From NCBI GenBank assembly GCA_944392445.1, contig CALXWT010000006.1, positions 1-44,647 of the forward strand: DNA of 44,647 nucleotides, in the 5' to 3' direction. Positions within the stretch are counted from its first letter, which is position 1. Each line of letters opens with the position of its first letter. The DNA is from an uncultured Clostridia bacterium. GTDB taxonomy: Bacteria; Bacillota; Clostridia; TANB77; CAG-508. The notes below the pieces were generated by a model. That model saw only the letters and a program-made list of their open reading frames with translations. It was not told the DNA's origin and did no database searches. Position numbers and translations under genes: made by a program. This document shows positions 15,109 through 19,613 of the stretch, one piece after another.

Positions 15109-16638
15109 TTATTCATCGGTAAAATAGTATAAATTCAAATCTTCTCCCAAATGCCATTTACCAATAAATTCTACCAAAATATTATTATCTAGATTATATG
15201 ATGGTGAAACTGCAATTTGACCTAGAGAATCTACTGCTCCCCATAATCCATTTTGTTTAACACTAGCATAACCATAATCGTTTTGCTCTCTTGCCTCATC
15301 ATAAATATAATTTACCACAACATTTCCATTTGCATCCACAAATCCGTATTTTCCGTCTTCATTTCTACTTAAGAAAATTGTGTTTCCATTTAGTATTTCG
15401 CTACTAGTTCTCTCCTCAAATCTAAAATTATAATATTTATATTCATTGCTTTCTCTTACTCTAAAATAGCCTTTTGATTCGTTTACTTCTGATAATATAA
15501 CACTAGATAATCGTACATTCAAATCCGTATCTAATAAATCTGATGTATAATCCTCATTTGTTGCTTCATAGAAATTACCTGTGCTTCTATATACTATATT
15601 TGAATATTTAAGGTCAAGAACAGTATTACCACTTGCATCCACAATTCCATATTTAGAATCATTTTGTACTATGTAGTGGTTGCCTTCTGCATAACTGATT
15701 GAATCATATTGCGTATCGATTATACTTCTATCATCTGTTATAGATACGACACCGAATTTTCCTCCTTCTTCTACTATTGCATTTTCTCCAGCAATATCTA
15801 TAATATCGTCATAGTCTCCTTCTAAGTATTTATTTCCGTCTGTATCTACAATTTCCCAGTTATTGTTTTCATTAACTATATAGTATTTTCCTCCACCATA
15901 TACACTCTTAATGTTATCATAGTTTTCTTGTACAGCAACTGTTTTTGTATATGTTATTACACCATATTTACTATCTTCATTCCTTACTATATATCCATCT
16001 TCAAACCTATCTGAAATAGGTATTATTTCTTCATAATTATTATCTATTATAGTAGACCCAACATTATCTATTAGTCCATATTTGCCATCTTTTTCAGTAA
16101 GTAAACTATTTTCTACTCCAGCTAGTGCTGTAATAGAATCATATTCGCAACTAGCTATTTGACTACCATTTGTATCAATCAAACCATATTTGCCATCTTT
16201 TGAAACTTTTAATAATCCTGATTGATACCACAAATTATTACTTTCGTCGTGATTTTCTATTGCTTCTACCAAGTCATAATCTGTAAATAATTCTTCACCT
16301 TTTTCATTTAATACTTTTGTATCATAAGTATTGTCCGCATAATTTACGTTTATTGTACATATAAATATAGGTTTTTGATTGTCTGGTATCACTATATATT
16401 CGTCATATGTATGTTCTATTATAATATTGCCTCTCGAATCTATAACTCCCCATTTACCATCTGTATATACTGGAAAATATCTCAAAGCCACAACTTTCTC
16501 TTGTGGGGTATCTTCTGTATTTAATAACTCTCTAATACCAATAACAAACATAACTATTACTGCTATTGCTATTAAAACCGCAAAGACTTTTTTTACATTC
16601 AGCTTTTGTTCTCCGTCATATCTTTTACCTCTACTCAT
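15109..16638 (-). CDS. Membrane-anchored WG-repeat protein
   Basis: A 509-aa protein with a short basic N-terminus (MSRGKRYDGEQK), one membrane helix at about 18-40, and then about nine to ten WG-type repeats to the C-terminus. Each repeat has the form (W/Y)G-(V/L)-(I/V)-D-x-x-G-x-x-(I/V) followed by YD, for example KWGVIDSRGNIIIE, KYGLIDTNGSQIA and GLWGAVDSLGQIA. WG repeats form extracellular beta structures of uncertain function; a binding role outside the membrane is inferred. I place the start at the ATG at 16638, with GGAGG seven bases upstream; a TTG-initiated longer form would begin inside that site. Confidence 0.88.
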   Translation of the reverse strand: MSRGKRYDGEQKLNVKKVFAVLIAIAVIVMFVIGIRELLNTEDTPQEKVVALRYFPVYTDGKWGVIDSRGNIIIEHTYDEYIVIPDNQKPIFICTINVNYADNTYDTKVLNEKGEELFTDYDLVEAIENHDESNNLWYQSGLLKVSKDGKYGLIDTNGSQIASCEYDSITALAGVENSLLTEKDGKYGLIDNVGSTIIDNNYEEIIPISDRFEDGYIVRNEDSKYGVITYTKTVAVQENYDNIKSVYGGGKYYIVNENNNWEIVDTDGNKYLEGDYDDIIDIAGENAIVEEGGKFGVVSITDDRSIIDTQYDSISYAEGNHYIVQNDSKYGIVDASGNTVLDLKYSNIVYRSTGNFYEATNEDYTSDLLDTDLNVRLSSVILSEVNESKGYFRVRESNEYKYYNFRFEERTSSEILNGNTIFLSRNEDGKYGFVDANGNVVVNYIYDEAREQNDYGYASVKQNGLWGAVDSLGQIAVSPSYNLDNNILVEFIGKWHLGEDLNLYYFTDE

Positions 16639-16674
16639 AGTGACCTCCAAAAAAAGATATTTTTTTACACGTAT

Positions 16675-16704: not shown

Positions 16705-16731
16705 CATTATTATGTATTTTTCCTAAAAATA

Positions 16732-17015
16732 GTTGCAAGTTAGCGCTTTAATATTATAAAAATTATATAAGTTAGAGTAAACTTCTAAAAAAAGTATTTC
16801 AAATATGTCGGTCCAGCTGATTTTCATAGAAATTCTAAATGTATTTTATGGCACCCTTCCATCAAAGATGAACTCTTTCCATAAAATACATTAAGAATTT
16901 CTATACTCAAATCACTCTCCATTCCATATTTTCATACTTTTTTTAGAAGCCTACTCTAACTTGTCCAAAATTAGTTATAATGCCAAATCATAATATTAAA
17001 GCACTAACTTGCAAC
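16732..17015. mobile_element. 284-bp MITE-like foldback element
   Basis: The ends form 25-bp terminal inverted repeats (16732-16756 and 16991-17015) with 24 matches, beginning GTTGCAAGTTAG. Inward, further blocks pair in register: AAGTTAGAGTA with its complement, CTTCTAAAAAAAGTAT, and an ATAGAAATTCT...TATTTTATGG block close to the apex, so nearly the entire element can fold back on itself. AAAAATA occurs directly at both outer edges (16725-16731 and 17016-17022; AAAAATAGT if the GT is counted), consistent with a target-site duplication. It carries no open frame. A non-autonomous transposed element fits best; a large structured RNA is the alternative. Confidence 0.75.
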
Positions 17016-17041
17016 AAAAATAGTACCTTTCGGTACTATTT
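17016..17041 (-). terminator. spoIIE terminator overlapping the stop codon
   Basis: On the minus strand AAATAGTACC, loop GAAA, GGTACTATTT, then further T residues. The stem begins within the last codons of spoIIE and includes its TAG stop. The foldback element abuts the T tract. Confidence 0.85.
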
Positions 17042-19525
17042 CTTACTAATTTTAGCTACAATCACACTCATGTCGTCTTTTTGTTTTCCATAATCATTGT
17101 CTATCGCTTCTCCGATTATTAAATCTGCAATTTTCTGTGCATCAGTTGCTTCTATGTCCTCCAATAAGTATTGTAGCCATAACTGCTTATTAACATATTC
17201 TTTGTTTGAGTCTATTACTCCGTCAGTACACATTACTAGAATATCTCCATCTTGTAAATCATAATCATATACTATTAAATCCACATTGTTTAATATTCCT
17301 GTTGGTAATGACATGGATTTTAACATTTGTACATTTCTTCCTCTCTTTACATAGGTTGGACAAGCACCATTTTTGATAAATTCCATATTTCCATTAAATA
17401 AATCTAATATCTCTATATCTAAAGTCGCATACATATCTTCATCTGTATTTGCTGAAAGTGTAGAATTTATCAGTTTTAGAGATACTTCTTTTTCGAATCC
17501 AGCTGATAATAGTCTTTCTAACATTTTTACTGCTATCTTACTGCTCTTCATAGCTTCTGGTCCTGAACCCATTCCATCGCTTAATGCAAGTAAATATTTT
17601 CCATCTTGTAATTTTATTTGCAAACTACTATCTCCAGATACAGGTGAACCTTCCTTAGTTGATTTTGCTATACCTATTTGTATTTTATATTTGTCATCAG
17701 AAATATATATAAATTTACATGTATCTTTATTCATTCTTAGCCCACATAGTTGATTTTGTAGAATTAAAGTTTGATTTAAAACCTTATTTAAAATTTTATT
17801 TATTCTTCTTACATCACACTCTGTTCCATCCGCATTTTCGCATATATCTGTATATATGTCTACAATAAATCTTCCTGAACTTTTTTGTTTTATATCTATA
17901 TTTTTTATTTCTATATCTTTTTGCTCTAATAATTTAATTATTTCTTGTTTTTGAGTAGCAAACTTGTCCTCTTCCTTGTCTATATCATCTGCCATTTTTG
18001 AAATAGCTTCAGACACTCCTCTTAATTGCTCTGATATATTCTTTTTGCTCTCATCTAGTTTTTTCTTCCAAATAAAATTTATTTTACTTACTCTATATGA
18101 ATAATTTATGGCTTTTACAATTCTATAAATATCCTCATTTGCTTGACTTTTTATATTCTCAAAACCTACTATATAATTGTTATTTTTTTCTAAAATTTTA
18201 ACAAATTCTTTTTCAGTAATCACGTCATTTTCTAATAAATAATCAAATATATCTGTTATTAACTCTTGTGTTGGGTAATAAATTTCCTCATATAGCATAT
18301 TGTCCTCTAAGTCTTCTAAGTTTTTCTTTAATTCTTCCATAAATATATCAATATTTGCTTTTTCTTGCTCTTTCAATTCTTTTTCAGAAAGTATAGTTGC
18401 AGCTGCTTCACTATAACTTTCTGCCATATCATATATAGTATCAGACATACTATTTAGTTTAAATATTGTATCTTTATTTTCTTCTAAATCTCTTTCTGTT
18501 TTTTCTGGTAAAAGTGGTGTTTTCCCTACTAAATCTTCTATATCTATCTCTATATTCTTAGGAATAATTAGTAGTCCCAATGAAGCAATTAGTATTTCTT
18601 GAAATAGTATAAGGTCTACTGTATTTCCATTTGCTGCGTATGCTAGTACTACATTTCCTAAAGTGAATCCTACTATGACACCTAATCTTCCAAATCTGTT
18701 TAACAGACCCGCAATTAAACCAGATATAGCATATGCTGCAATCATAATAGGCTCTGTTCCTGTAATTATTCCTAGTACTACTCCTATTGTTATACCTCCT
18801 GTTGCACCAACCAGCATACCATTCTTCCAACCAAGTATTAATACTATTAGTATGCTTAAAATATTTTTAATAGAAAACCCAAATATATTTAAACTTCCAA
18901 ATGCTGTTATAGTTATTGCAAGTAATAAACTTGTCCCTGTTACCTCTTCTATTGAAAATGCTCTTCTTTTTCCAAAATCTATTATCATTGTAATTGAGTT
19001 TGTAAAAATTTTATAAAATATATATGTAGTCATACTAAGCATTATGCTTGTTAATAAATCAAATACATAGAAATCTCTAAAAAGCATTGGTACTAGTTGT
19101 ACAAGCAATACAGCAATAAATAAATGAACTCCAATTTTTCTTATCTCATTAACATTATCTTGTAGCTTTGGCCTTATGATTAAAATCAATGCAAAAAAGA
19201 TTAATGAAGTTATGAAAAATGTAACTAAACTATTAAACCCAAAACCAATAAATGTTCCTATTAGTGATAGTACATACATTATGCCAATAGGTCTATTGTT
19301 ACTTAGAGCCCCTGCAATAATAGCTAATCCAAATGGTGATATATTAAACATTAGTGTATTTTCATTAAAACCAACCATTGATATTAAAAATGTAACAACA
19401 TATAGTATTATGTTTTGCTTTGCAAATAGTTTATTTAACACATCTTTTGCATTAACTTTTTTATTTTCTTCTATCTCCTCATCATTTTGATTATCCAACG
19501 AGTCTCTTGTTATATTTTGAAACAT
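17036..19525 (-). CDS. spoIIE: Stage II sporulation protein E (PP2C phosphatase)
   Basis: An 829-aa membrane phosphatase that dephosphorylates the anti-anti-sigma factor SpoIIAA and so activates sigma-F in the forespore; it also acts at the polar septum. About ten membrane segments occupy residues 40-340. A helical, charged linker with coiled-coil character (about 350-590) follows. The PP2C domain contains LLALSDGMGSGPEAMKSS (metal-binding D650) and VMCTDGVIDSN, and ends KQKDDMSVIVAKI. Length matches known SpoIIE proteins. I place the start at the ATG at 19525, with AGAGGTGG upstream. It is monocistronic. Its presence is the strongest sign that the organism forms endospores. Confidence 0.96.
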   Translation of the reverse strand: MFQNITRDSLDNQNDEEIEENKKVNAKDVLNKLFAKQNIILYVVTFLISMVGFNENTLMFNISPFGLAIIAGALSNNRPIGIMYVLSLIGTFIGFGFNSLVTFFITSLIFFALILIIRPKLQDNVNEIRKIGVHLFIAVLLVQLVPMLFRDFYVFDLLTSIMLSMTTYIFYKIFTNSITMIIDFGKRRAFSIEEVTGTSLLLAITITAFGSLNIFGFSIKNILSILIVLILGWKNGMLVGATGGITIGVVLGIITGTEPIMIAAYAISGLIAGLLNRFGRLGVIVGFTLGNVVLAYAANGNTVDLILFQEILIASLGLLIIPKNIEIDIEDLVGKTPLLPEKTERDLEENKDTIFKLNSMSDTIYDMAESYSEAAATILSEKELKEQEKANIDIFMEELKKNLEDLEDNMLYEEIYYPTQELITDIFDYLLENDVITEKEFVKILEKNNNYIVGFENIKSQANEDIYRIVKAINYSYRVSKINFIWKKKLDESKKNISEQLRGVSEAISKMADDIDKEEDKFATQKQEIIKLLEQKDIEIKNIDIKQKSSGRFIVDIYTDICENADGTECDVRRINKILNKVLNQTLILQNQLCGLRMNKDTCKFIYISDDKYKIQIGIAKSTKEGSPVSGDSSLQIKLQDGKYLLALSDGMGSGPEAMKSSKIAVKMLERLLSAGFEKEVSLKLINSTLSANTDEDMYATLDIEILDLFNGNMEFIKNGACPTYVKRGRNVQMLKSMSLPTGILNNVDLIVYDYDLQDGDILVMCTDGVIDSNKEYVNKQLWLQYLLEDIEATDAQKIADLIIGEAIDNDYGKQKDDMSVIVAKISKK

Positions 19526-19613
19526 AATAACCACCTCTACCTTTTTATTTATGCATTAAAGTTTCTCCTTTTAGTTTATCCTTTGTGTTAGTAGCATTTT
19601 TTAATGCTACTTT

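Follow-up and report, generated by a model that had tools for sequence, protein, structure and literature searches.

A foldback MITE family in uncultured Clostridia and its probable IS66-type transposase partner

Introduction

A 284-nt foldback lies between two genes of an uncultured Clostridia bacterium, and the question raised by this locus is whether the foldback is a transposed element of a non-autonomous kind or a very long structured RNA. Both readings were offered in an earlier note, made from the letters of the window alone (the window being the whole stretch of DNA that was analysed, 44,647 nucleotides of contig CALXWT010000006.1). We examined the foldback itself, its copies within the same genome and genus, and the sites that it occupies in related species. 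We conclude that it is very probably a non-autonomous DNA transposon, a foldback of the MITE type served in trans by an IS66-family transposase, with inversion of its interior and joint change of its arms following insertion.

The foldback downstream of spoIIE

The element (16732..17015) is located between spoIIE (17036..19534, minus strand; Pfam PF19732 and PF07228) and a gene for a WG-repeat protein (15109..16650, minus strand; PF14903). It is present in the sequence as first described, and its predicted single-strand DNA fold has an energy of -65.3 kcal/mol, compared to a mean of -16.1 (sd 3.1) for shuffled sequences (z = -15.7); none of 200 shuffles folded as well. No open reading frame of at least 80 amino acids is found inside it, in agreement with the earlier description. 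The terminal arms had been given as 25 bp with one mismatch; the mismatch is there, and the arms measure 26 bp, the left one (GTTGCAAGTTAGCGCTTTAATATTAT) at 16732..16757 on the plus strand and the right one at 16990..17015 on the minus strand. Between them is a near-palindromic core of 190 bp (GTTAGAGT...ACTCTAAC; 16771..16960, plus strand), which is the part shared with other copies. An alignment of 58 copies shows two conserved asymmetric loops within this core: internal loop 1, with its 5' side (GTCGGTCCAGC) at 16807..16817 and its 3' side (ACTCTCCATTCCA) at 16914..16926, and loop 2 in the apical part (GGCACCCTTC ... GAACTCTTTCC; 16850..16880), all read on the plus strand.

The motif AAAAATA was correctly reported on both sides of the element. 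The left copy, a putative target-site duplication (TSD), is at 16725..16731 (plus strand), and the right one is contained in AAAAATAG at 17016..17023 (plus strand). The duplication in the window is imperfect (TAAAAATA / AAAAATAG); the best reading is an 8-bp TSD, AAAAATAG, from which one G was probably lost at the left junction, as the 8-bp duplications of recent copies suggest. The right copy doubles as the A-tract of a terminator-like stem-loop of spoIIE (AAAAATAGTACCTTTCGGTACTATTTCTT; 17016..17044) that adjoins the element. The earlier note had placed this copy in the spoIIE terminator; a consensus terminator scan did not pick up the stem-loop. Taken alone, a duplication within an A-tract would be weak evidence of transposition.

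Copies within the genome and the genus

The genome to which the window belongs (G000; 1.64 Mb in 92 contigs, assembly 97% complete) has dozens of matches to the element. By an nhmmer profile search about 24 of these are near-complete cores, and the rest are fragments or foldbacks that have only the apex in common with the element; copy counts here are based on genome searches and retrieved loci. The copies share the inner ~170-190 bp, while on either side the outermost 30-50 bp vary by locus. The outer arms of each G000 copy pair with one another and not with the arms of other copies: own-pair scores range from 9.5 to 42, mismatched arms average 9.9, and the 99th percentile of the mismatched scores, 15.7, is exceeded by most own pairs. 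Because the arms seemed locus-specific in this genome, insertion of the core into palindromes, or inverted duplication of its flank, was at first suggested. All 22 copies examined in G000 are intergenic, with 17 of them between tandem open reading frames.

For most G000 copies, an ortholog is present in G020, G029 or G007. Further copies are found in sister species across this genus of uncultured Clostridia, and several sister species are without the element altogether. A scan of a public genome collection with the loop-1 pattern returned 83 stretches. Nearly all of them carry the label uncultured Clostridia or Clostridium, and viral contigs gave no match; as far as searched, the family is confined to one group of uncultured Clostridia. 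The pattern was also seen in one Bacilli contig and, probably by chance, on a contig of a Methanophagales archaeon (L281).

We compared the spoIIE site in 29 species belonging to the genus. The element is present there in G000, G020, G029 and G007; G018 has a decayed or divergent relative, G011 a copy whose arms are different, G016 a short arm-like hairpin that lacks the core, and several other species different hairpins. The site is empty, with only an ordinary terminator-like stem-loop, in G002, G014, G024, G027 and others, so that the empty site between spoIIE and the WG-repeat gene which the earlier note had proposed to look for does exist. This distribution indicates that the insertion predates the separation of the four species and is not universal in the genus. 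At other loci, putative distant empty sites in G005 (L092, L096) lie in intergenic regions too diverged for alignment, and a site in G020 (L008) was rejected as empty: part of the arms is retained and, because the element is present there in G007, a deletion is the better reading.

The 3' region of spoIIE carries a differing hairpin or element in many of the 29 species (L135-L162), and terminators and foldbacks turn over rapidly at this single position. Hairpins of the GTGTGGACAAAAGGGACA / GGGGACGTACG type are abundant between genes (L131 ~2571-2686, L092 ~1663-1820 and several locus flanks), frequently in positions occupied by the MITE in a sister species.

Ends and target-site duplications of recent copies

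The arms are near-identical among copies that occupy unrelated sites in G023 (CALXWQ). In G023 and other genomes, recent copies are ~253-272 bp long, start with GTTACAATTCACGGC and finish with GCCGTGAATTGTAAC, which gives both ends the terminal repeat GTTACAATTCAC[AG]GC. A search of G023 for the exact 14-base end pattern returned 37 occurrences, compared to 0 for its reversed control. The flanking duplications, in G023 and relatives, are exact over all 8 bp in six cases (TACTGATT, TATCTAGT, CATACCAT, TTTCTGAA, TACAGGAG and ATTATTCT); two more have one mismatch, another has two, and a further three have three or more. They vary from site to site. Copies with the same ends and different flanking duplications, proposed earlier as a check of mobility, are thus at hand. 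Tn3 elements generate duplications of 5 bp. A clean empty site with a single TSD was sought in G001 and G012 for one recent G023 insertion (L273), and none was obtained because the neighboring gene differs.

Since identical arms are found at unrelated sites and end at 8-bp duplications, they represent terminal inverted repeats (TIRs). The terminal repeat of the window copy (GTTGCAAGTTAGCGC) keeps 10 of the 15 outer bases of the family consensus GTTACAATTCACGGC, about two-thirds, as counted by eye. The arms of the window copy, an old and diverged member of the family, are therefore the element's own TIRs, diverged with age.

Several other small foldbacks were seen in the same material. Tiny derivatives consisting mainly of the outer arms (L341:954-1053, 100 bp; L342:1325-1392, 68 bp) have exact 8-bp duplications, AGCATGTA and GTGTCAGT. 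A second foldback family of ~204 bp has the same or similar ends (GTTACAATTCAC; L215:2656-2859, L109:2718-2921), with a GTCGGTC-like motif (GACCGACAAG / TTGTCGGTCCCCACC) in its interior as well; the L215 copy is flanked by a 9-bp direct repeat, TTTAAGATG. Foldbacks in L170, L171, L182 and L183 have only the apex in common with the MITE family (ATGGCACCC..GAACTCTTTCCAT) and combine it with another lower module (CTCGGCTCAATACG / CTCCAATCACATTTCGG), which looks like an exchange of modules.

A probable partner with an IS66-type transposase

An element of 1936 bp in G025 (G025:C30) carries GTTACAATTCACAGCC at both ends and encodes a single long open reading frame of 530 amino acids; the MITE and this insertion sequence (IS) have the same 16-bp ends. 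The predicted protein matches the DDE_Tnp_IS66 domain (PF03050; E 1.3e-17, 64.6 bits) and the IS66 equivalog of NCBIfam (NF033517; 184.9 bits with a cut-off of 180). A second copy of the IS, in G005, is 88% identical at the amino acid level, has the same ends and is flanked by an exact 8-bp TSD (AAATTTGA); the flanking repeat of the G025 copy lies in an A-run and reads as 9 bp. There are no accessory open reading frames upstream of the transposase gene, only the one long frame between the IS ends. IS66 relatives with a single open reading frame exist.

IS66 elements have been reported to yield 8-bp duplications (PMC11946415, PMC3281130), and GTAAGCG is the reported typical start of their terminal repeats (PMC11946415). 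The ends of the present IS start with GTTACAATTCAC and not with GTAAGCG, and therefore it is named IS66-type by its transposase only. The IS was found in 2 of 30 genomes of the genus, with one additional weak partial match. There is no detectable copy of this transposase in the 97%-complete G000 assembly, and no copy of the MITE was seen in G025, which carries the IS. Despite the differing IS ends and the lack of the transposase in G000, the link between MITE and IS66 is strong at the level of sequence, and an IS66-type transposase is very probably what moved the MITE. The transposase gene with the same terminal repeats that was to name the family has been found, and the likely name that it gives is IS66.

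Inversion and paired changes at orthologous sites

When G000 copies are compared to their orthologs in G020, G029 or G007, 13 of 28 comparisons show a core turned round with respect to its flanks, even among pairs with flank identity of 95-99%. Part of these flips could be chimeric, given the fragmented state of the draft genomes and the repetitive core. The spacers are inverted along with the core in 8 of the 13 cases, and most of the remaining five involve copies that have no spacer. Most of the genomes are metagenome-assembled, so that core swaps as well as flips may in part be assembly chimeras, and the inversion is deduced from comparison between species only. Internal deletions occur at several sites.

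The arms of orthologs change in a coordinated way. At 27 paired positions both sides have changed with complementarity kept, while 7 positions changed on both sides without complementarity and 66 on one side; by a hand estimate, about 1-2 paired changes are expected if the sides are independent. Inversion and paired arm changes would be jointly explained by exchange between the arms.

Conserved loops of the interior

Pairing has been kept through changes on both sides in 27 of the 43 pairs predicted for a set of 58 diverse cores, and the loops GTCGGTC../..CCATTCC and GCRCCCTC/..CC are asymmetric in nearly all copies. A third loop, which neighbors loops 1 and 2, is symmetric in several copies. 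Since symmetry is thus easily reached, this suggests that the asymmetry of loops 1 and 2 is maintained. The excess of wobble contexts that an RNA would leave on one strand was not significant, either in the core (G-T versus A-C contexts 11:22, p 0.08) or in the arms (39:49, p 0.34), and an Rfam search with eight loci gave only sub-threshold matches, none of them to the element.

Discussion

The family brings together shared TIRs, TSDs that vary by site, no coding capacity, a length below ~500 bp and multiple copies, to which relatives add empty sites (at spoIIE) and a partner with the same ends (in G025 and G005). The earlier proposal of a non-autonomous transposed element is borne out by its copies, duplications, empty sites and partner IS. 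Of the observations that were named in advance as speaking against mobility, compensatory changes in the arms do occur; however, the element is not a single copy, and empty sites are not lacking. In the explanation that we favor, an IS66-family transposase would recognize the terminal repeat GTTACAATTCAC[AG]GC(C) in trans and the element would be inserted with 8-bp TSDs; the ends and the duplications are observed, and from them we infer the role of this transposase. The insertion of the window copy at the spoIIE A-tract would date from before the separation of G000, G020, G029 and G007, and the ends of the copy would have diverged afterwards. The segment between the arms would then flip repeatedly at its fixed site, the arms would change jointly, for which crossover, conversion or template switching between them is the simplest route, and deletions within the hairpin would leave small remnants.

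It is improbable, in our judgment, that the foldback is instead a conserved structured RNA, or a protein-binding cruciform used by the host or the element, with mobility secondary. The covarying helices of the core and the two loops that stay asymmetric, next to one that became symmetric in several copies, are what such a function would predict. However, a structured RNA would be expected to have strand-specific wobble and a fixed orientation, and neither was found: the wobble bias was not significant, and 13 of the 28 orthologous comparisons show a flip relative to the neighbors; no Rfam family matches, several sister species live without the element, and the paired changes could come from arm conversion alone. 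We also put forward, tentatively and as an unlikely elaboration, a self-maintaining hairpin transposon in which frequent inversion and arm-to-arm copying preserve the palindrome and the two selected loops bind something (the transposase, a host factor, or a partner when present as RNA), the conserved structured module being partly common to several unrelated-looking foldback families of the genus (TGTCGGTC). That the copies are kept as transcription terminators, or as replacements of terminators, in intergenic regions of high hairpin turnover would fit their positions between genes, mostly tandem ones, and the other hairpins at the same positions in sister species. We find this rather improbable, because the window copy stands beside an intact terminator-like stem-loop and not in its place, and because purifying selection on any insertion would also produce an intergenic bias.

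The remaining alternatives concern the mode of insertion. If the core had entered existing palindromes, or duplicated its flank in inverted form, then the arms would belong to the target; this agrees with G000 cores that each lie inside a different long inverted repeat and with the arm-like hairpin without a core at the spoIIE site of G016. It was dropped once the common arms of recent copies were seen, since these are identical at unrelated sites and end at 8-bp TSDs, and outgroups are without both arms and core; we regard it as highly improbable. That a different transposase, not the IS66-family one, moved the MITE is also unlikely. The link consists of 12-16 bp of end sequence and the 8-bp TSDs, and the IS is rare in the genus and absent from G000, yet two diverged IS copies have the same 16-bp sequence at both ends, the duplication length fits IS66 (PMC11946415, PMC3281130), and a non-exhaustive search found no other transposase with these ends. 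Non-autonomous transposition with the IS66-family enzyme in trans thus remains our preferred explanation.

Comparison with known systems

Prokaryotic MITEs, including Chunjie, ERIC, QMITE2, SPRITE and others, were reviewed in 2024 with no mention of IS66 (PMC10969869), and in the open literature (subscription journals being mostly outside this search) we found no paper on an IS66-linked MITE. The kind of element is known; the family, its IS66 link and its invertible interior appear undescribed in the literature searched. About two dozen orthologous palindromes provide a natural series in which inversion, arm homogenization and hairpin deletion can be read directly, and which makes the survival of long palindromes in bacterial chromosomes and selection on MITE interiors testable. 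Annotation can be misled by such elements, because the TIRs of old foldbacks can seem locus-specific.

The inverted interior resembles invertons and phase-variable inversions, in which a segment between inverted repeats occurs in both orientations; here, unlike in invertons, the interior is itself palindromic, and no invertase gene or promoter switch is shown. Like the reviewed prokaryotic MITEs (PMC10969869), the element is short, AT-rich and mostly intergenic, lacks an open reading frame, has TIRs and TSDs that fade with age, forms a strong stem-loop and is probably moved in trans. Unlike them, it folds back over its whole length as a single near-perfect hairpin that holds two conserved asymmetric loops, and its interior appears to invert at fixed sites. 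The partner resembles the IS66 family in its DDE_Tnp_IS66 transposase and 8-bp TSDs, with ends that match the MITE, and differs from it in ends that start with GTTACAATTCAC instead of GTAAGCG and in the single transposase frame. As with MITEs named after the transposon that mobilizes them, although the transposase family there is a different one, this MITE family gains a named partner, IS66.
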